A DNA stretch of 64,000 bases, from contig JACAFB010000002.1 in the NCBI GenBank assembly GCA_013388545.1, positions 62,001 through 126,000 on the forward strand. The letters are read 5' to 3'. The position numbers and the translations under genes were made by a program. Positions 34,163 through 46,055 of the stretch are shown here, piece after piece. Position 1 is the stretch's first letter, and each line of letters starts with the position of its first letter. Source of the stretch: Ignavibacteriaceae bacterium (lineage in GTDB: Bacteria > Bacteroidota > Ignavibacteria > Ignavibacteriales > Ignavibacteriaceae). A model generated the notes under the pieces. It was not told the origin of the DNA, made no database searches, and worked only from the letters and a program-made list of their open reading frames with translations.

Positions 34163-34540
34163 AATTTACCCACTCCTAAGGGAATTCTTCTCAGTTAAAA
34201 CAAATGCTTAGTAAGCTGAATATTATTTCTAAGTGTGATTCTGTTCTTCAAATACTTTATAAAGTTTTTCTATAAAAAAATTATAAAAAAAGCTTTTTTC
34301 TATAATGTGTTAATTTCAATAGTCTTAAAGCTTTCATTTAATCTATTCTTTAGGTGTTTAATTAAACCAATTCATTTCTCTAGTCTTAAGAACAAATAAA
34401 ATCATTTTTCATTTTTCAAATTTTAATTTGTTAATACTAAGGTAATATTTATTTAAACAATTCGTAAATCTTCGATAATAACGCCGTAATAAAACCATCA
34501 TAAGTTTGCCCCACGTTTCATTTATTTGAGAGGGTTATTA
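34163..34540 (+). promoter_or_regulatory. Upstream control region of the TonB receptor gene
   Basis: About 380 very AT-rich bases. It contains two copies of TAGTCTTAA (34320 and 34381, 61 bases apart), a 12-base palindrome GTTTAATTAAAC at 34356-34367 between them, and a TAnnTTTG box near the gene. No ORF is supported. The repeated element could be the response-regulator site. Confidence 0.4.
34501..34508 (+). promoter_or_regulatory. Candidate -7 element (TAAGTTTG) of the TonB receptor gene
   Basis: Matches TAnnTTTG, 32 bases before the chosen ATG. No clear -33 TTTG, which would fit dependence on an activator. Confidence 0.4.
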
Positions 34541-37318
34541 ATGTTTAAAATATTACTGTGGTATATAATTTATTTTAGCATTAGTGGGTCAGTCGTTTTT
34601 GCTCAATCAACCGGAACTTTAACAGGAAAGGTGATTGATGCTACTACGGGAGAGAATATAATTGGGGCAAATGTTTTGGTGGATGAAACCAATCTTGGAG
34701 CAGCTACGGATATTGAAGGAACCTTTATAATTAAAAATGTTCCTGCCCGAACTGTCAGCATAACTATTACTTTTATCTCTTACACAAAGACAACAATTAC
34801 TGATGTTGTTGTAGAAGCTGGTAAAGTAAAGACAGTAAATGTTAGCTTAAAACCTCAAACCCTTGACATTGGAACAGAGGTAGTAGTCGTTGGCAGTATC
34901 TCAGGGCAATATGAGGCGGCATTATTAAATCAGAGAAAAAAATCCATACAGATAAGTGATGGTATCAGCGCTGAACAAATAAAACGATCAACTGACAACA
35001 CCACCGCAGAAACCTTGAGGAGAGTTCCGGGTCTGACTTTACTGGACAACAAATACATCTTTGTCCGCGGAGTGAGTGAAAGATACAACACAGCATTATT
35101 AAATAATTCCCCTCTTGCCAGTTCCGAGCCAGATAAAAAAGATTTTGCATTTGATTTAATACCTTCAAACCTGATAAATAATACAACAGTAATAAAATCA
35201 TTTACTCCTGACGAACCGGGTGATTTCTCAGGAGGGCTTGTGAAGGTTAATACTGTCGAATTTCCGTCCGAAACAATTTTTTCTTTTAGTTATTCAACCT
35301 CATATGTTGATAATGTTTCAACTAAACAATACAACACATATCAAGGCAGCAATACTGATTTTCTGGGATTTGACAACGGTTTCAGAAAATTACCGGAAGG
35401 ATTTCCTGATCCTCTAACCTTTAAGAATTATGATAACAGTCTAACTGATACCAACAGAACTTATTGGTCAAAAAAACTAAATGACAAATGGGGCATTCAA
35501 AACAGAAAAGAATTTCTTGATCAATCATTTGCTCTGACATATGGAGATAGGTTTAACATTTTTGATAGTGATTTAGGCATTATTGCCTCATTAACATATA
35601 AGACAGGTATAAACTCAAAAAATATTACAACCCGTGATATAGAAAGTAAAGAGAATAAAACTTTTTTCTACGATTATTCTGGTTACAGATTCTCTAAAAA
35701 TGTTTACTGGGGAGGTCTGATAAACATCTCTTATAAATTAGGAGAGCTGCACAAAATCAGCTTAAAAAATACTTTAACTGTTGATTCAGATGACGAAGTC
35801 ACAAAACTTCAGGGATTTAAATTTGATTATCAGGATGAAAGAATAATTAATGCCTTAAGATATGTTTCAAGAAATCTTTATTCAGGACAGTTAGCCGGTA
35901 CAAGTATAATCCCGCTCTTTAATAATATTCAGATTGATTGGAGAGCATCTTATTCATCTTCCTTCAGGGACGAACCAGATTACAGAAGAAACGCTTATAA
36001 TCGGGATATAGCTGATTCAAATACAACAAATCCCTTTTACGCTTATATACCAAGAGATCCCGACTTTTATGCAGGAGGAAGATTTTATTCTACTCTTAAA
36101 GATTATAAAAGAGGACTAGGAATTGATCTGACTCAAACATTTGACTTTCTGAAAATCAAAACAGGCGTAAACCATTATAACAGCTCGCGATCTTTCAATG
36201 CCAGATTATTAAGTGTTACTGATCCTTTTGGATCTGCCCGCCAAACCATTGGCTTGTGGGATCTTGATTCTCTTTACAGGGTTGATAACTTCAGTAAAAG
36301 ATACATAATGATGAGAGAATTTTTTGACCCGGCAAATGATTATACATCAAAAGATAATTTATTTGGTTACTATTTGATGACCGAGTTAAGCTTCAATTTA
36401 ATTAATCTGAACTTTGTACTAATCTCCGGTTTAAGAATTGAGAATTATGAATTAAAGTTAAGAACAACTTCGTCCATTGCAACGGGAATGAAACCAATTA
36501 CTGTTGATAATTTTAACAGCGATTTGCTTCCTGCATTTGGATTAATTTACAGAGTCACAGACGCACTGAACATCCGACTTTCTTTCAGTAGAACAATCAA
36601 CAGACCTCAGTTCAGAGAAATTGCACCTTTTGTTTATTATAACTTTGAAGATCAAACTCTGGTAAGAGGTAACACTGAATTAAAACAAGCAAATATTTCT
36701 AATTATGATTTACGATTTGAAGCATTTCCAGACATTGGAGAATTAATCTCCCTCAGCTTATTCCTTAAAGAGTTTCGCAATCCTATCGAAAGAGTTTTTT
36801 TAGTCTCAACAGGTCAAAACGACCGAACATTCGCAAATGCATCATTCGCACGCAATGCAGGTTTTGAAATAGAATACAGAACATCTCTTGGCAAAATTTT
36901 GAACCTTTTTGACAATTTTAATTTTACAGCCAACTATTCAAGAATCTGGTCAGAAATAGAAGAGACAAATATTGGTACCGGAAGGCAATTACGACCTATG
37001 CAAGGTCAAAGTCCATATGTAATTAATCTTTCATTAAACTACCAAAATATTCAATATGATTTTTCAATAAACCTGTTATTCAACAGATTCGGAAAAAGAA
37101 TCATAGAAACTGCAAATTTTCAAGGGGATGATATTTATGAATTTCCCCGGGATATCATCGATTTAGTAGCTACAAAGGGAATTGGGGATCAGGTCGAAAT
37201 TAAGTTCTCAATCAAAGATCTTTTTGCTCAACCTTATGAATACTTTGAAGATGATATTCTGGTCAAAAAATATACAACTAACACCAAGCTGTCACTTGGT
37301 GTTAGTTACAAGCTTTAA
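34541..37318 (+). CDS. TonB-dependent outer-membrane receptor with N-terminal carboxypeptidase-like domain
   Basis: A 925-residue SusC-like receptor. The ATG at 34541 is used because GAGAGGG lies just upstream and the signal peptide (FKILLWYIIYFSISGSVVFAQ) begins there. Next comes a CarboxypepD_reg-like domain ('GKVIDATTGENIIGANVLV', ~25-110), a plug domain (~125-230: 'RRVPGLTLLDNKYIFVRGV', 'SERYNTALLNNSPLASSEP', 'GDFSGGLVKV') and a 22-strand-type barrel to the C-terminus. Plug wording RGVSERYNTALLN is found in a receptor class spread across Bacteroidota and Proteobacteria. No SusD partner follows; three T9SS-secreted proteins do. The substrate is unknown. Confidence 0.93.
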   Translation: MFKILLWYIIYFSISGSVVFAQSTGTLTGKVIDATTGENIIGANVLVDETNLGAATDIEGTFIIKNVPARTVSITITFISYTKTTITDVVVEAGKVKTVNVSLKPQTLDIGTEVVVVGSISGQYEAALLNQRKKSIQISDGISAEQIKRSTDNTTAETLRRVPGLTLLDNKYIFVRGVSERYNTALLNNSPLASSEPDKKDFAFDLIPSNLINNTTVIKSFTPDEPGDFSGGLVKVNTVEFPSETIFSFSYSTSYVDNVSTKQYNTYQGSNTDFLGFDNGFRKLPEGFPDPLTFKNYDNSLTDTNRTYWSKKLNDKWGIQNRKEFLDQSFALTYGDRFNIFDSDLGIIASLTYKTGINSKNITTRDIESKENKTFFYDYSGYRFSKNVYWGGLINISYKLGELHKISLKNTLTVDSDDEVTKLQGFKFDYQDERIINALRYVSRNLYSGQLAGTSIIPLFNNIQIDWRASYSSSFRDEPDYRRNAYNRDIADSNTTNPFYAYIPRDPDFYAGGRFYSTLKDYKRGLGIDLTQTFDFLKIKTGVNHYNSSRSFNARLLSVTDPFGSARQTIGLWDLDSLYRVDNFSKRYIMMREFFDPANDYTSKDNLFGYYLMTELSFNLINLNFVLISGLRIENYELKLRTTSSIATGMKPITVDNFNSDLLPAFGLIYRVTDALNIRLSFSRTINRPQFREIAPFVYYNFEDQTLVRGNTELKQANISNYDLRFEAFPDIGELISLSLFLKEFRNPIERVFLVSTGQNDRTFANASFARNAGFEIEYRTSLGKILNLFDNFNFTANYSRIWSEIEETNIGTGRQLRPMQGQSPYVINLSLNYQNIQYDFSINLLFNRFGKRIIETANFQGDDIYEFPRDIIDLVATKGIGDQVEIKFSIKDLFAQPYEYFEDDILVKKYTTNTKLSLGVSYKL

Positions 37319-37440
37319 TTCACATAAACTGTACATCGTTATTTTCTGAAAGGAGGTGTTTACGGAATTAAAGAAAATTTTGAAAAAATATCCGTCAGAA
37401 ATTTAAAGAATTTTTAACTATTAACAAGGAGTTCAACAAA

Positions 37441-40341
37441 ATGAAAAAGATTTGGAGTCTATTACTGACAGTAGTTTTAGTTGTGCCGGTTTTTGCTCAA
37501 TTAACACCAACTGACAGCACAATAACCAACAATGGCGGTGCTGGAATTACATCCAGCGTTGTCCTTGATAAAAACAAAGTATATTTAATTCAGGGATTTG
37601 TTTACGTAAGAAACGGTGGAACACTAACAATTCCTGCAGGTACAGTATTATTAGGAGAAAAATCCTCACAGGGATCATTGATCATCGAAAGAGGAGGGAA
37701 AATATTTGCTAATGGAACTGCCCAGGAACCAATTGTCTTCACAAGTCAACAACCAGCAGGTTTAAGGACCCGCGGCGACTGGGGAGGAATAGTGATTTGT
37801 GGAAAAGCAGCTAACAACAGACCTGGTGGAAACTTTGTTGTTGAAGGTAATATTGGAAGCACTGCCGGCTATGGCGATGGAGGAATTGTTCAGGATGATA
37901 ATGATAACAGCGGAGTTCTCAGGTATGTAAGAATTGAATTTCCAGGTATAGCTTATACTCCTAACAATGAAATTAATGGTTTAACTCTTGCTGCTGTTGG
38001 CAGAGGAACAACAATTGATCATGTTCAGGTTAGTTATTCCGGAGATGATGCTTTTGAGTTTTTTGGCGGAACAGTAAACGCAAAATATTTAATTGCTTAT
38101 AAATCGCTGGACGACGATTTTGACACTGATTTTGGATATTCAGGTAAAATCCAGTTTGGAGTAGCTTACAGAGATCCGAGATTGTCTGATGTTAGTAAAA
38201 GTGAAGCATTCGAAACAGATAACGATGGAAGCGGGACTACGGCTTCTCCCAGAACTGAACCAGTGTTTTCAAATATTACTGTAATTGGACCCAAAAGGTT
38301 AGCAACAGACGTTAGCCCTACAAATTTTGATTCTGATTTCTATTATGGAATTCATCACCGAAGAGCAACAAGGCATAATCTGTTTAACAGCTTGATTATG
38401 GGTTTTGATGAAGGTGGTATCTTCTTGGATGGTGCAACAGTGCAGGGAGACACAGCCAATTTCACCTATAAAAATAATCTCTTCACGGGGATGTCAAAAT
38501 TAATTGAACCAACAACTTATAATGCCTGGTTTTCTGGGTATGGAAATTCTCTCTCTTCCGACCTAAACGCTGGTCTTTTAAAGGCTCCTTTCAATCAAAC
38601 AAGTCCAGTTATGATACCACAAGCGGGTTCTCCTCTTTTGGGTACAGCTTCATTCACTGGTAGTAAAATATCTGATCCTTTTTTCACAGTAGTTACTTAT
38701 CGTGGTGCTTTTAGTGGTAATGGTTCAGAAAGATGGGATCTTAACTGGGCTAATTATGATCCGCAGGGAATTGTCTATAATAATAGCAACTTAGTCTGGT
38801 CTTCAATTATAAATTTAACAAGTCCATCAAACAAAACTGCTTCAGTTATCATCGGTCGTGGCGTTGGTGCAACAGATGGAATTGATGCATCATTCGGAGA
38901 AGCAAATCTGCCGCCAGTTCCGCCAACAGGTGTTGATTTAAGATTAGAACTTCCAGGCGGGACACAATTCAGTGCTCTTGACATCAGAAGTGCAGCTACC
39001 ACTTCCAGTGTTATCACTTACACACTTGATATGCAGGACCCCGGTGTGCTTAATTGGGATCCTAATCAACTTGGAGCAGGAAAGTTTACATTGAAAGACG
39101 GTTTTGGTGGTTCAGTATTTCCAAATCTGGATATGAAAACTGCTTCATCTCAAAATGTATCCACATTAACTTCTGTTCTTATAGAAGTTGATACAAGGTT
39201 TAATCAAACCATTGTCGTAGGCAACCAGTGGAATCTTGTATCATTTCCCGGAGTACATCCGAATAGTATGAGTGTTGATACTCTATATAGAGGCAGAGAT
39301 TTAACAACACCCGTTTACAAATTTTCCGGCGGATATGTTACAACCTCTACGATGACACCAGGAGAAGGATACTGGATGTTTCATAATGGAGTTAGAACTT
39401 ATAACTGGAATGGAACAACTCAATCAGGTATTCTTTATCCAAAGCTTAACTACTCAGCAAGAAATGTTTTCGAAGCTCCAAGTGGCTGGTCAATTATTGG
39501 TGGTTATGAATATAATGCAGATGTAAACTTCATCAGAACCATGCCAGAGAATAAGAGAACGGGATTGATATATAAATATGTACCAGGTAGCGGTTATTCT
39601 TCTGTTGGAGTGCTTGAACCAGGATTAGGTCATTGGGTTGAACTCACAGGTGCTGCAAACATAATTATACCGGGACCATTTGCAGGCACGCTTGGTAAAA
39701 ATCCTGCTGATGAATTGATACAATCTAACTGGGGTAAAATACTCATTTCAGATGCAATTGGTCAACATTATACATTGTATGCAGCAAATGGTGACGTTGA
39801 TCTAAAAACTTTCAACTTGCCTCCATTACCACCTGCAGGTTTATTCGATGTTAGATTTGCATCACAAAGATTCGTGGAAGATTTATCGGCTACACAGTTA
39901 ATCAATTTAACCGGAGCAGTCTATCCTGTTACAATTTCAGTTGAAGGAATGAATATGAAGTTAGATTATTCAACTGAGTCTGGAAAAGTTAGTACTATTT
40001 TGAAAAATGGTGATAATCATAAAATAGCAAACAGCAGTAATAATACTTTAAGTGTTAAAACCGAAAAAGTAATTCCAGATGAATATATCTTAGAACAGAA
40101 CTATCCAAATCCATTTAATCCAACAACCACAATCAAATTCTCTATTCCAATGGCAGGTAACGTAAAGCTTACGATCTATAATGCTGTTGGTCAGAGAGTT
40201 GCGGAACTGGTTAATGGAACATTGGAAGCGGGTTCTTATTCATTTAATTGGGATGCTACAAAGATGGCATCAGGTTTATATTTCTATGAATTAAACACCA
40301 ATAACTTTTCTTCAGTAAAGAAGATGATGCTATTAAAATAA
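37441..40341 (+). CDS. T9SS cargo protein, beta-solenoid-like with two LPPxPP modules
   Basis: A 966-residue exported protein with an AAGGAG site. Signal peptide 1-20. Residues ~25-460 are a glycine- and beta-rich region with solenoid-like wording ('GTLTIPAGTVLLGEKS', 'GDWGGIVICGKAANN'). A first LPPxPP module is at ~465-590 ('FGEANLPPVPPTGVDLRLEL'). Two 'WNLVSFPG/GWSIIGG' domains follow (~595-765), then a second module at ~768-850 ('NLPPLPPAGLFDVRF') and a type A sorting domain ('LEQNYPNPFNPTTTIKF', ending VKKMMLLK). It follows the TonB receptor by 122 bases. It is likely a surface or extracellular partner of that receptor; function unknown. Confidence 0.87.
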   Translation: MKKIWSLLLTVVLVVPVFAQLTPTDSTITNNGGAGITSSVVLDKNKVYLIQGFVYVRNGGTLTIPAGTVLLGEKSSQGSLIIERGGKIFANGTAQEPIVFTSQQPAGLRTRGDWGGIVICGKAANNRPGGNFVVEGNIGSTAGYGDGGIVQDDNDNSGVLRYVRIEFPGIAYTPNNEINGLTLAAVGRGTTIDHVQVSYSGDDAFEFFGGTVNAKYLIAYKSLDDDFDTDFGYSGKIQFGVAYRDPRLSDVSKSEAFETDNDGSGTTASPRTEPVFSNITVIGPKRLATDVSPTNFDSDFYYGIHHRRATRHNLFNSLIMGFDEGGIFLDGATVQGDTANFTYKNNLFTGMSKLIEPTTYNAWFSGYGNSLSSDLNAGLLKAPFNQTSPVMIPQAGSPLLGTASFTGSKISDPFFTVVTYRGAFSGNGSERWDLNWANYDPQGIVYNNSNLVWSSIINLTSPSNKTASVIIGRGVGATDGIDASFGEANLPPVPPTGVDLRLELPGGTQFSALDIRSAATTSSVITYTLDMQDPGVLNWDPNQLGAGKFTLKDGFGGSVFPNLDMKTASSQNVSTLTSVLIEVDTRFNQTIVVGNQWNLVSFPGVHPNSMSVDTLYRGRDLTTPVYKFSGGYVTTSTMTPGEGYWMFHNGVRTYNWNGTTQSGILYPKLNYSARNVFEAPSGWSIIGGYEYNADVNFIRTMPENKRTGLIYKYVPGSGYSSVGVLEPGLGHWVELTGAANIIIPGPFAGTLGKNPADELIQSNWGKILISDAIGQHYTLYAANGDVDLKTFNLPPLPPAGLFDVRFASQRFVEDLSATQLINLTGAVYPVTISVEGMNMKLDYSTESGKVSTILKNGDNHKIANSSNNTLSVKTEKVIPDEYILEQNYPNPFNPTTTIKFSIPMAGNVKLTIYNAVGQRVAELVNGTLEAGSYSFNWDATKMASGLYFYELNTNNFSSVKKMMLLK

Positions 40342-40355
40342 TTCTTTCATCAAGA

Positions 40356-40384
40356 TTACCTATCTCCGCAAAGGAGGTAGGTAA
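40356..40384 (+). repeat. Intercistronic hairpin with buried AAGGAGG
   Basis: Stem TTACCTATCTCC/GGAGGTAGGTAA (one G-T pair) around a GCAAA loop, 14 bases after the stop. No T-run follows, so termination is doubtful; mRNA 3'-end protection or partial termination between the two cargo genes is more likely. The AAGGAGG inside the stem precedes no gene. Confidence 0.6.
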
Positions 40385-40455
40385 CTTTGAATAAGAATTT
40401 CACTTAGAATTGATTTTAGAACTTAAAACAAAAATTTAGAGGAACCAGAAATTTT

Positions 40456-43038
40456 ATGTCAAAAAAAGGTATAAAAATATTTTTATTTATTCTTGGGATT
40501 TTACTCCTTAACACGAGTAACATTTTTTCCCAGGCAGAAATTGATATTCCAATAACCGTCAGTAATAATGCACCGTCACCAAATTCAACTCCAACCTTTA
40601 TAGGATTGGATCTTACAGCAACTGATACGCTTGATGTTGGATTAGGCGAGGCAAATCTTCCTCCTCTTCCACCAGCAGGTGTTTGGGACGTAAGATATGA
40701 TTTGGGTGGTGGAAAATCTTCATTCCGCGATTATAGAAATGCACCTTCATATCCTTTTACGGGAACCAAAACTCATTTACTTAAATGGCAGCAAGCAACC
40801 GGTGCAACAACAGTCACTATAACCTATAATATGCCCGCGAATTCCTCCTTAAGAATTCAGGACACATTTGGCGGACCAATTTTAAATGTTGGTCCCTTTA
40901 CCGGTTCAGGTTCATATACTATTACTAATACATCATTAACTTCGGTCAACTTAATTGTAGAATACTCTGCGATTAATCCACCTGTTTCAGGACCAATATT
41001 CAATATATCTCCCTCGTCTCCGCTCACGATTCCACCAACTGCAGTTGGTTCGTCGAACTCTGCCAATGTAACAGTAAGTAACACAGGAACAGCTGCATTG
41101 GATATCACAAGTATAACTTCGTCAAATCCTGAATTTACAATAGCACCAACAAGTGCTACAATTCCTGCAAGTGGAAATCAGGTATTTGTAGTTACATTTA
41201 CACCAACTTCTCTTGGAAATAAAACAACTAATCTTGTATTTACCCATAATGCTTCAGGTTCACCGACAACATATGTTGTAAATGGAGTAGGAGCAGACGC
41301 TGGTCCTACTTTTTCAGTTACACCAACATCATTAACATTCAATACCAATCAGGGTGTACCTGTCACTCAAAATGTAACTGTAACTAATAATGGTTTAACA
41401 AATGCTTTGGCTATTTCTAGTGTAACCACAAGCTTGCCTTACTCAGTCAGCCCTACCTCAGCAAATATTCCTGCAGGCGGGAGTCAGGTATTTGCGGTAA
41501 CATTCAGCCCAACAACCGGTGGTTCATTTCCAGGTTCTCTGGTTTTTACACATAATGGGACAACATCACCGGATTCTGTGACCTTATCGGGTACCGCTGT
41601 TTCAGTTTTTGGATTAGTATTTGCCCAAGAAAAAAGGTATGTAAAAGAAGATTCAACCTATACAGATATTATCCAACTGAAAAGTCTAACTCAAACAACT
41701 CAGGCAATTCAGTTCAGATTATTAGTCAATAAATCAACTGGAGATAATTCGATAATTACTTTTCAAAGTATTGAAAAGGGAGCTGATATAGCTGCAAATC
41801 CAAACTGGTCATTGCAATACGAAATATACAGAGGCCCTATTACTGCAAATGGCTCATCGGTTGACTCAATCTATGTGCTGTTATACAACCTTCAGCAAAA
41901 TAGTGGATTGCCTGCTGGCAGTTATGATTCACTTTTAAAGGTTAATTACTATGTAGTTGATTTACCAGCTTTGGTTGATACATCAAAATCATCCTTTAAA
42001 ATTGATAATGCACAGGGAAGTACTTATCAGGGTGCCCCGGTCAATATAACACCTTCACGCGATAAATTTGAAGTTTTTGTTACAAACAGAGCTTCATCTC
42101 TTGGTGACGTCAATGGCGATGGAAGTATAGATATTCTTGACTTAATAAATGTTGTAGATCATATACTTGGCAGAGATTCGCTTAATGCCAGTGAATTTGC
42201 CAGAGCGAATATTGCCCCCTGGACAGTTGGTGCTCCAGCCCCAACTCCGGATGCATTTGTTAATGTTCAGGATCTGGCAGTAATACAGAATATAATATTA
42301 ACCGGGTACTATCCAAGTGGTGTGGCTCTGAATAGAGCATCTTTTATAGCTACTGTTGATGAAAAGCTGTTGAATAAAATAAATGGCTCGGCTAAAGTTA
42401 AGTTATTTATAACTAATGACGGTATAGCCGTTAAATTGGATTCGGACATCGGAATCCGTGGTGTTCAGCTTGAATTCAATAACGTTAAAACTGAGATTGG
42501 CAATATGTTAATTGATTCAAGACTTGGCGGCGGTTATTATCATCAGTCGGGTGATCTTTTGCGTGTGCTATTATATGATCAGGCTGGAAATGCTGTTATT
42601 AATGAAGGTGATAATTTGGTCGCAAATATGCCATTTGATTTATCAGATCCGAAATCAGTTTCGATCAATAAAATAATTCTTGTGAGCATTAACAATCAAA
42701 AGATAGATGATATAAATGTTGAGATATATTACAGTAATGCTCCGGAAATACCTGTTGATTATTCTCTTTCTCAGAATTTCCCAAATCCATTCAATCCAAG
42801 CACAAGTATTCAATTTTCTGTGCCAAAAACCGGATTTGTAACGATAAAAGTATATGATTTAATTGGACAAGAAGTTACTACTTTGTTCGCTGGAATAGCA
42901 GAAAGAGGATTGTACACTTTAATATGGAACGGGAAAGATGATAATGGAAACCTTGTAAGCAGCGGAAGCTATATTTACAGGATGTCAGCTAATGATGGGG
43001 GATTTGTTTTATCAAAGAAAATGACTTTTCTGAAATAA
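40456..43038 (+). CDS. T9SS cargo protein with LPPxPP module, choice-of-anchor D repeats and dockerin-like segment
   Basis: An 860-residue exported protein. Signal peptide 1-26. Residues ~28-175: LPPxPP module ('LGEANLPPLPPAGVWDVRY'). Residues ~180-390: two choice-of-anchor D/ASPM-like repeats ('NVTVSNTGTAALDITSI', 'NVTVTNNGLTNALAISSV'). Residues ~395-545: cohesin-like beta-sandwich. Residues ~550-625: dockerin-like calcium loops ('LGDVNGDGSIDILDLINVV', then 'PDAFVNVQDLAVIQNII'). A second beta domain is at ~640-770 and the type A sorting domain lies near 780-860 ('LSQNFPNPFNPSTSIQF'). Dockerin and cohesin-like parts suggest protein-protein assembly at the cell surface. No enzyme domain. Confidence 0.87.
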   Translation: MSKKGIKIFLFILGILLLNTSNIFSQAEIDIPITVSNNAPSPNSTPTFIGLDLTATDTLDVGLGEANLPPLPPAGVWDVRYDLGGGKSSFRDYRNAPSYPFTGTKTHLLKWQQATGATTVTITYNMPANSSLRIQDTFGGPILNVGPFTGSGSYTITNTSLTSVNLIVEYSAINPPVSGPIFNISPSSPLTIPPTAVGSSNSANVTVSNTGTAALDITSITSSNPEFTIAPTSATIPASGNQVFVVTFTPTSLGNKTTNLVFTHNASGSPTTYVVNGVGADAGPTFSVTPTSLTFNTNQGVPVTQNVTVTNNGLTNALAISSVTTSLPYSVSPTSANIPAGGSQVFAVTFSPTTGGSFPGSLVFTHNGTTSPDSVTLSGTAVSVFGLVFAQEKRYVKEDSTYTDIIQLKSLTQTTQAIQFRLLVNKSTGDNSIITFQSIEKGADIAANPNWSLQYEIYRGPITANGSSVDSIYVLLYNLQQNSGLPAGSYDSLLKVNYYVVDLPALVDTSKSSFKIDNAQGSTYQGAPVNITPSRDKFEVFVTNRASSLGDVNGDGSIDILDLINVVDHILGRDSLNASEFARANIAPWTVGAPAPTPDAFVNVQDLAVIQNIILTGYYPSGVALNRASFIATVDEKLLNKINGSAKVKLFITNDGIAVKLDSDIGIRGVQLEFNNVKTEIGNMLIDSRLGGGYYHQSGDLLRVLLYDQAGNAVINEGDNLVANMPFDLSDPKSVSINKIILVSINNQKIDDINVEIYYSNAPEIPVDYSLSQNFPNPFNPSTSIQFSVPKTGFVTIKVYDLIGQEVTTLFAGIAERGLYTLIWNGKDDNGNLVSSGSYIYRMSANDGGFVLSKKMTFLK

Positions 43039-43048
43039 AGCATTTCTT

Positions 43049-43080
43049 ATTCATCTCTCTCTTTACAGAGAGAGATGAAT
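43049..43080 (+). repeat. Intercistronic hairpin
   Basis: A perfect 13-bp stem ATTCATCTCTCTC/GAGAGAGATGAAT with loop TTTACA, 10 bases after the stop. Followed by TAAAATATC, not a T-run, so it is at best a weak terminator. Confidence 0.6.
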
Positions 43081-43209
43081 TAAAATATCTAAGAAAAAAG
43101 GAAATAATTCTTGTTTCTCTGAGTGTCAATTAAAAACATTACTTAAATGATCTTAGAGAAAAAATAATTAAATCATTAAAATATTTTACAATAAACGGGA
43201 AGAATAAAA

Positions 43210-43998
43210 ATGAAATTAGCTTTAATACTTATTTGTGTTTTCGTTTTGACAGGATTATTGAAATCTCAAACTAATCCTGCAATTATGATCAGCCTTGAAT
43301 TTTCAGATCCGGTAGAATCCAGAACAATCTATTTTGGGATTGATCCGACAGCAACTGACAGTTTAGATTTTCTTTTAGGTGAAGCAAATCTGCCACCATT
43401 CCCACCAGCACCAACTCTTGAAACCAGATTTCTTTTACCCATTGATAATTTTGCAGGAACGAAAAGTACATATAAAGATTTCAGAAATGGAAATATTCCA
43501 TTCAGCGGACAAAAAGAACATAGAATACAATTTCAAAGCAGAGGCTCATTAAAGATGTTTTGTAATTTGCCACCAGAAATAAATATACAGGTAACAGATT
43601 TATTTGGTGGAGTAATACTTAACACCAATCTTTCCGGTATAGATACATTGAGTATACCTGATGCTCTGAATCAACTTAAATTTTTCATCAATTATAATAA
43701 TGCAACTTTAGTTGATGAGGAACAATTTCAGGACATAGATTTTAATTTATCTCAAAATTATCCTAATCCTTTCAACCCTTCTACCAATATTCAATTTACT
43801 TTGAATAATCGTCAGTTTGTCAGGCTGACCATTTTTGATTCAATTGGTCGGGAGATTGCTACGTTAATTAACGATGAGATATCTGCCGGAGTTCATAATG
43901 TTTATTTCAATGCAGACGGTCTTACTAACGGAGTGTATTATTATAGATTAATTTCAGGGAATTTATCCCAAACAAAGAAAATGATATTGATAAAATAA
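43210..43998 (+). CDS. Small T9SS cargo protein consisting of one LPPxPP module
   Basis: A 262-residue exported protein: signal peptide 1-19, a single LPPxPP module (~25-165: 'FGIDPTATDSLDFLLGEANLPPFPP', 'YKDFRNG', 'IQVTDLFGGVILNT', 'LKFFINY') and a type A sorting domain (~175-262; 'LSQNYPNPFNPSTNIQF', ending TKKMILIK). The module aligns by eye across its whole length with the N-terminal module of the 860-residue neighbour, so the gene looks like a stripped-down paralogue. It shows that the module can stand alone as a secreted unit. Confidence 0.87.
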   Translation: MKLALILICVFVLTGLLKSQTNPAIMISLEFSDPVESRTIYFGIDPTATDSLDFLLGEANLPPFPPAPTLETRFLLPIDNFAGTKSTYKDFRNGNIPFSGQKEHRIQFQSRGSLKMFCNLPPEINIQVTDLFGGVILNTNLSGIDTLSIPDALNQLKFFINYNNATLVDEEQFQDIDFNLSQNYPNPFNPSTNIQFTLNNRQFVRLTIFDSIGREIATLINDEISAGVHNVYFNADGLTNGVYYYRLISGNLSQTKKMILIK

Positions 43999-44081: not shown

Positions 44082-44663
44082 ATGAACACTGATAATGAAA
44101 ATGAAATAATTTTACTAAAGTCTAATTATCTAATACCCATATTGAACAATATAACCAAAAGGAATTCTTCATATAGTCGGTATAAAGTTAATGCACATTA
44201 TTTAAATTGTTCCTGTAAAGAATACAGATTGAATACAAAATATTACGAATTGAGAGATTTGAGAAGGATTTGTAAGCATATATTTTTCATAATCACCAGA
44301 GATTACAGAAATAGTGTTGATGAATTGACATCACTTTTGCTTGAACACAGGTTTTGGGACAAAATTGAAAATGTAATTGAATTAAAAGTATTTAAAGAGA
44401 ATATTTTTGTTGGTTTTGAAAAGGATCTTAAGTTCGTAAGAATCTACCGGAAATATATAAACTGGAAATACTATTCCTACCTCATAGAATCAAAATCGTG
44501 GGAGCATAATCTCCCTCCTTTTAAGTCATCAAATAAAAATGAAAAGTTGATTAGCTTCTTATTAGCTGAAGCTAAAAATAATTTTAATCTTACGAAGAGC
44601 TCAAGAAAAAACCGCCTGGAGATGGTATCTCAGGCGGTTGTCGAAGGGGAGAGAGTAGGATAA
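44082..44663 (+). CDS. SWIM-type zinc-finger protein
   Basis: A 193-residue protein with no signal peptide. Near residues 42-70 it has the SWIM pattern CxCx(n)CxH: 'LNCSCKEYRLN' followed by 'RRICKHIFFII'. SWIM fingers bind DNA or proteins and are usually part of larger proteins such as transposases or SWI/SNF ATPases; here little else is present. The last ~20 residues are encoded by a GC-rich hairpin that reads as a terminator on the other strand, so the natural C-terminus may have been changed. The ribosome site is weak. Lying 83 bases after the T9SS cluster, it may be an extension of that unit. Confidence 0.65.
   Translation: MNTDNENEIILLKSNYLIPILNNITKRNSSYSRYKVNAHYLNCSCKEYRLNTKYYELRDLRRICKHIFFIITRDYRNSVDELTSLLLEHRFWDKIENVIELKVFKENIFVGFEKDLKFVRIYRKYINWKYYSYLIESKSWEHNLPPFKSSNKNEKLISFLLAEAKNNFNLTKSSRKNRLEMVSQAVVEGERVG
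44605..44639 (-). terminator. Orphan minus-strand terminator inside the SWIM gene 3' end
   Basis: On the minus strand AACCGCCTG/CAGGCGGTT (extendable with ATCT/AGAT) is followed by TTTTTTC. There is no annotated minus-strand gene upstream of it, so it may end a small RNA. Confidence 0.6.
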
Positions 44664-45224: not shown

Positions 45225-46055
45225 ATGCAAGTTAGAATCCTTTTAATAAAAGTATTTATTTCTATCTTATTTATTTCTAATGGTACAATTCAAGCACAGA
45301 CGTATGCTGATAATAGCAAGATAGCATTCATCAGACAGCATAACGTTAAATCAATTAAAGTGACTTCGTATCCGTATATAAAAGGTGAGCCTTCAAAAAA
45401 GGGAGTGCTTAAAAATTCCTATCATTACGATATGGAAGGGAAATTGATTGATGTCTATAATTACCTTCCTGATGGTTCATTGGTTTCGCAAAATAAATAC
45501 ATTTATAATCTTGATGACAGCCTGATAACATTTCAATATTTCAGTATTACAGGAGGAGGAAATTCAACTACCAGGATTGAATATGAAGCGTCTGGATTGC
45601 GGAAGGCTGAGTACTTTCAAAAAAGCGGGAATAACGTTCTCAGTGCAACCTATAGTTATAATAAATTAAAACTTCCTGCAGAAGTAACTTTGTTTATCGA
45701 TCCATTTTCAGGTAAAACCGGAAAAGTTACATATGAATATGATCAGAATAACAGATTAGTCAGTTTAACAAGGCAAAACATAGGAAAGATTCCATTCCTG
45801 AAAGAAGTTTTTTATTATGACTCTGCCGGTGCATTAACCGGAATAACATCATTTGATGAAGATCAGACTATAAGAAAATCAATTAAATATAAGTATGCTC
45901 AGAAAGGAAAAATAATTGAGATATTTACTGAGGAAATGAATTCATCTGAGAAGCGGCTTTTATTTTATAACAGCAAAAGAATGTTGATTGAAGAGAAAGT
46001 ATCCTCCTCTGCAAAAGGAATGTTCTTGATCAAATATGAGTACGAGTATTATTGA
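45225..46055 (+). CDS. Exported protein with YD/RHS-like repeats, unknown function
   Basis: A 276-residue protein with a signal peptide (LIKVFISILFISNGTIQAQ). The mature part is a series of beta-hairpin repeats of about 20-25 residues built around 'Y.Y' pairs ('YHYDMEGKLIDVYNYL', 'YEYDQNNRLVSLTRQ', 'FYYDSAGALTGITSF'), like the YD repeats of RHS proteins but without the RHS core or toxin domain. There is no T9SS sorting domain, so it may stay in the periplasm. Single-gene unit with a candidate promoter. Confidence 0.72.
   Translation: MQVRILLIKVFISILFISNGTIQAQTYADNSKIAFIRQHNVKSIKVTSYPYIKGEPSKKGVLKNSYHYDMEGKLIDVYNYLPDGSLVSQNKYIYNLDDSLITFQYFSITGGGNSTTRIEYEASGLRKAEYFQKSGNNVLSATYSYNKLKLPAEVTLFIDPFSGKTGKVTYEYDQNNRLVSLTRQNIGKIPFLKEVFYYDSAGALTGITSFDEDQTIRKSIKYKYAQKGKIIEIFTEEMNSSEKRLLFYNSKRMLIEEKVSSSAKGMFLIKYEYEYY

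Follow-up and report, generated by a model that had tools for sequence, protein, structure and literature searches.

The window (the whole stretch of 64,000 nucleotides that was analysed) contains three consecutive genes, P1, P2 and P3, whose products are cargo proteins of type IX secretion (T9SS), and which follow the gene of a TonB-dependent receptor. P1 (37441 to 40341, 966 amino acids) begins 122 bases downstream of the receptor gene on the same strand, and is followed by P2 (40456 to 43038, 860 amino acids) and P3 (43210 to 43998, 262 amino acids). The open reading frames in our list were called mechanically from ATG, GTG and TTG starts, so the starts of neighbouring genes may be off. The source genome is MAG-like, with 2.9 Mb in 88 contigs. 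Features of the locus are as follows, where window-excluded profiles are those built from relatives only, with every window sequence removed.

34526-37318, + strand: TonB-dependent receptor with CarboxypepD_reg, Plug and barrel domains (Pfam PF00593 E 1.4e-23, PF13715, PF07715)
37441-38799, + strand: N-terminal solenoid-like half of P1, about residues 1-453 (family search; no Pfam match)
38800-39201, + strand: module copy 1, M type, P1 residues 454-587, GEANLPPVPP (window-excluded profile)
39211-39720, + strand: P1 linker with two GWNxxS...GYW repeats, P1 residues 591-760 (phmmer)
39730-40074, + strand: module copy 2, C type, P1 residues 764-878, FNLPPLPPAGLFDVRF (window-excluded profile, hhalign, tree)
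40084-40338, + strand: P1 T9SS type A sorting tail (TIGR04183 E 3.2e-12, PF18962 E 9e-10)
40543-40971, + strand: module copy 3, N type, P2 residues 30-172, GEANLPPLPP (window-excluded profile, tree)
40981-41595, + strand: P2 ASH / choice-of-anchor-D Ig-like domains (PF15780 E 9.8e-19, NF012200 E 1.8e-15)
42100-42177, + strand: P2 dockerin-like EF-hand segment, DVNGDGSIDILD (PF00404)
42760-43035, + strand: P2 T9SS sorting tail (TIGR04183 26.6 bits, cut-off 23)
43285-43701, + strand: module copy 4, N type, P3 residues 26-164, GEANLPPFPP (window-excluded profile, AlphaFold2)
43741-43995, + strand: P3 T9SS sorting tail (TIGR04183 E 3e-10)

All three proteins end in a T9SS type A tail that scores above the curated TIGR04183 cut-off of 23 bits (46.3 bits in P1, 26.6 in P2 and 40.0 in P3). 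SprA (1018.6 bits, cut-off 200) and PorU (974 bits, cut-off 420), the translocon and the sortase of the T9SS, are encoded in the same genome, where T9SS tails number about 125 (of 127 matches, some of them fragmentary, 124 exceed the cut-off). P3 consists of a signal peptide, the module and the tail, and nothing more, which is how the first-pass annotation had described it. The dockerin motif reported there for P2 is real though borderline, since PF00404 scores 22.8 bits on the whole protein and 24.0 bits on a fragment, against a cut-off of 22.9. The P1 linker is unmatched in Pfam even at E 10, and phmmer matches to it lie beside most C-type modules, which makes this two-repeat element a constant neighbour of that type. 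Downstream of P3, positions 44082-44663 encode a 193-amino-acid protein that has a SWIM-like CxC...CxH pattern and matches no Pfam family, and positions 45225-46055 encode a secreted 276-amino-acid protein with single RHS/YD-type repeats slightly under the Pfam cut-off.

The modules of P1 (two), P2 and P3 are four homologous copies of one domain family. By pairwise BLASTP, P2 matches P3 with E 1e-24 and the first P1 copy with E 3e-11. Window-excluded profiles recover all four copies, with domain E-values of 1.7e-26, 6.5e-36, 1.1e-39 and 1e-32 for copies 1 to 4, and detect no further credible copy in the six frames of the window. Copy 2 is short and divergent, and is homologous over its whole length by comparison of profiles, the other being that of the N/M type described below (hhalign 99.4%, E 1.8e-21). 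A whole-genome search finds the module restricted to these three adjacent genes. The central proposal of the first-pass annotation, a module shared by three consecutive T9SS cargos, is therefore borne out, and its copy coordinates lay close to those listed above. The DxFGGxxxxN turn that it described is indeed present in three copies; the closing [VF]xY that it also described is found in P2 and P3, but is not exact in the first copy of P1.

Two types of module can be distinguished, namely N/M, to which three window copies belong, and the shorter C, represented by one. C modules directly precede a T9SS tail in 73 of 76 cases, with a median gap of 5 residues. N/M copies are present in 17 of 41 near relatives and in 84 of 396 genomes sampled across the phylum Bacteroidota, and C copies in 14 and 72 of these, respectively; most genomes from other orders of the class have a single C copy. 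N/M modules also occur in 67 of the 72 C-type genomes (Fisher p 3e-53), a value that ignores relatedness and the frequent presence of M and C in one protein, and this co-occurrence is partly a product of such shared proteins and of shared ancestry. In a tree of 231 modules, built on few alignment columns and with many open forks, all 75 C copies fall on one side of a branch with support 98. The first window copy clusters with M copies of relatives, the P2 copy groups with its P2 counterparts at loci L033 and L034 (support 93), and the C copy groups with the C counterparts of the same two loci. N/M and C are two ancient types of one domain.

Some further occurrences were noted. A tighter pattern scan retrieved 26 loci, nearly all from Ignavibacteria or MAGs, and matches in a plasmid search were limited to the T9SS tail and its approach. 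The contigs of Melioribacteraceae SCALA702 (G037) hold about 29 N/M and 33 C matches, as against four copies in the genome of the window. A partial module occupies positions 377-526 of L096, on a contig labelled Desulfobacterales; since this copy is single and partial and lies on a short contig, it may reflect contamination, a binning error or transfer.

Pfam and PDB sequences were searched with both 47 N/M and 29 C members, and NCBIfam with the 47 N/M members; the domain libraries covered were thus Pfam and NCBIfam rather than all of InterPro. No reproducible family match was obtained in these searches, in agreement with the first-pass annotation, which could not match the module to a named family. 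One of the 47 N/M members weakly matches choice-of-anchor D / ASH (E 0.0045). These Ig-like domains resemble the module in being surface beta-sandwich accessory domains, and lie beside it in P2, but are a separate family.

The P3 module is confidently predicted by AlphaFold2, using 44 sequences, to form a ten-strand beta-sandwich (pLDDT 94.7, pTM 0.88). Foldseek identifies no match to it among solved PDB structures at E 1e-3 (best E 0.054), and the TM score (query) is at most 0.34 among the best 50 matches listed. The fold is likewise unmatched at E 1e-3 in a viral structure library. A model of the P1 region that spans the M module, linker, C module and tail (pLDDT 85.9) gives just generic Ig-chain matches; both predictions are of single chains. 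The module may have an unusual beta-sandwich fold, with a looser beta-sandwich kinship possible. Nothing relevant emerged from the literature, which we searched for a described module and for a T9SS / TonB / beta-helix operon. In this module, surface proteins of Bacteroidota share a family of beta-sandwich domains that had not been assigned before, and recognising it would give annotation a name for a recurrent class of "hypothetical T9SS proteins".

The gene arrangement in the window recurs elsewhere. In another genus (L033), a large C-type protein is followed by an N-type protein of about 960 amino acids and then by one of about 360, and the same order is found in a second genus (L034), where the contig end cuts the third gene. 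Residues 502-966 of P1 share 48% identity with the large L033 protein, and identities to counterparts are 41-55% for P2 and 39-51% for P3. These loci sustain the earlier suggestion that the three cargo genes form a unit. At most of the loci sampled from other orders of the class, an M-linker-C-tail protein of about 1050 amino acids is followed by an N-type protein of about 260. A recurrent cluster of up to five genes (L119-L133), found across families of the class, encodes a very large NM cargo, a cargo of about 650 amino acids, a protein of about 390, a C-type cargo of about 1050 and an N-type protein of about 260. The protein of about 390 amino acids resembles Cohesin by eye, but its Pfam match is sub-threshold (E 0.1), and we rejected this assignment.

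Loci were sampled by module matches, and the following adjacency rates therefore apply to this sample. Among 43 small module proteins, defined as those of 400 amino acids or less, 26 lie directly beside a C-type protein encoded on the same strand, four more lie beside another module protein (30 of 43 in all), and 13 have no module neighbour. The minimal module-plus-tail protein, singled out in the first-pass annotation, is thus a recurrent partner of a large cargo. In a distant family (L136-L144), the small protein, as read from its sequence, begins with a lipobox-like segment, contains an InlB-like repeat region and carries a module at its C end. All 10 small partners seen in this family have the lipobox, and five of the 10 adjoin a giant C-type T9SS protein; the module-bearing lipoproteins have no T9SS tail match. 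We considered that a small partner might occur only where the large protein lacks an M module, but the partner is found with both kinds; because M-containing C-type proteins also have one, simple complementation, in which the partner replaces a missing M, is not seen.

The large proteins vary greatly at the other end. The 72 C-type proteins bear 27 unrelated N-terminal parts, and cassette swapping is general. C modules of genome G001 that are almost identical lie behind different N-terminal cargo parts (L068, L042 and L043), suggesting recent cassette exchange or gene conversion.

We propose, tentatively and at somewhat less than an even chance, that the module is a surface-assembly domain that joins large secreted cargos to small co-encoded partners. 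The C type sits at a fixed place before the T9SS tail of the large cargo, and the N/M type lies inside large cargos or makes up nearly the whole of the small protein. After export, the small partner would stay at the surface on an anchor of its own (of T9SS type, or lipid in some lineages) and would use its N-type module to dock to the large cargo, so assembling or retaining the latter on the cell. The N-terminal half of the large cargo is exchangeable, and in the window is a solenoid from a family that partners TonB receptors. That small partners carry either a T9SS tail or a lipid anchor favours a surface-held role. A narrower version, which we consider unlikely, is that docking is homotypic in Bacteroidota, the C type of interchangeable large cargos pairing with the type carried by the small anchor protein, whether secreted or lipidated. 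If true, this would display or retain giant proteins, and would be a second way to hold T9SS cargo besides sortase attachment.

In how it would work, such docking is comparable to the cohesin-dockerin system, in which complementary domains encoded by separate genes join surface proteins. However, the module is not a cohesin (no significant Pfam match, and no Cohesin match at E 0.1 among the 47 and 29 module members), both partners here carry homologous domains, and docking is our inference. The organisation of particular T9SS cargos into structures after delivery is poorly known, and there are many cargos per cell. The module is confined to a single locus here, forms conserved pairs of C-type and small proteins across classes of the phylum, and is missing from current family libraries. 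P3, with 262 amino acids, offers a small and concrete handle on cargo organisation.

The module might instead be a generic structural spacer, a rigid beta-sandwich filler that, in the manner of Ig-like stalk domains, has no specific partner and whose C copy insulates the cargo from the T9SS tail. By position, though not by sequence, its closest known analogue is the IgSF domain of the gingipain RgpB, which lies before the T9SS tail and has been proposed to act as a spacer or insulator (PMC4804311). IgSF domains of RgpB, Kgp and PPAD resemble the module in being beta-sandwiches directly upstream of a T9SS sorting domain (PMC4804311), but have seven strands rather than ten and no sequence match to it. 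Moreover, gingipain chains are absent from the best 50 Foldseek matches listed for the module, and a co-encoded module-only partner is not described for them. The fixed position of the C module before the tail is also suggestive of a spacer, as are tandem arrays of three or four module copies in L038 and L051. However, the genome has one C module among its roughly 125 tails, and the module is therefore not a general tail spacer. A small module-only protein is also recurrently paired with it, and nearly all copies share several conserved charged residues, which is more than a filler should need. We regard a spacer as somewhat unlikely.

Binding of a glycan or metal ion by the PPxPP loop and conserved D, E and R residues, with P1 to P3 as adhesins or glycan binders, is quite improbable. 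The N/M copies do have an Asp-rich DPxATDGID loop, a near-invariant E and two DxR motifs, which such a role could use, but the C copies lack the Asp-rich loop. Carbohydrate-binding modules usually have conserved aromatic residues, whereas no aromatic residue is conserved at 80% or more in the N/M copies. In addition, none of the 47 N/M and 29 C members matches a CBM, Foldseek matches no known binding module at E 1e-3, and polysaccharide-degrading enzymes are not among the neighbours.

We give little credence to a function in export, whereby a T9SS component would read the C module as an extended sorting signal and the small protein would act as a secretion chaperone. The constant position of the C module and the presence of SprA and PorU are compatible with this idea, but in one family the partners are lipoproteins whose module lies at the C end, and a C module is absent from nearly all the T9SS tails in this genome. 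With one such module among about 125 tails, a general requirement for export was rejected.

The T9SS type A sorting domain itself (TIGR04183 / PF18962) occurs at the C-termini of P1, P2 and P3. It is a domain distinct from the module, which it follows, and lipoproteins without a tail match carry the module too.

The first-pass annotation suggested, from the four-gene order, that the receptor and the three cargos form one surface system, and took as its test whether the module is linked to this receptor class or scattered at random. The three cargos are linked, the modules are associated with each other and their distribution is non-random, but the receptor link fails. That the cargos capture a substrate for the adjacent receptor is the least credible reading and is largely refuted for the module: although the receptor gene immediately precedes P1 in the same orientation and the P1 solenoid family usually lies beside this receptor type, examination of about 80 loci found a receptor homologue in only 2 of 43 small-protein module loci (the window itself being one), no module in any of 29 other sampled solenoid loci, and no receptor at L033 and L034, which keep the three-gene order.

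The receptor is the partner of the P1 solenoid half, not of the module. The N-terminal 455 residues of P1 represent a family present in 195 of 297 sampled genomes, and a homologue of the window receptor is adjacent in 25 of the 29 other solenoid loci fetched. Members are mostly about 550 amino acids long, comprising solenoid and T9SS tail with no module. Since this family occurs with the receptor and without the module, a receptor-partner solenoid has here been joined to a module cassette, and substrate uptake is possible for the solenoid half of P1. The pair of TonB receptor and solenoid T9SS protein (window 34526-38799; L168-L195) is conserved across much of the phylum.
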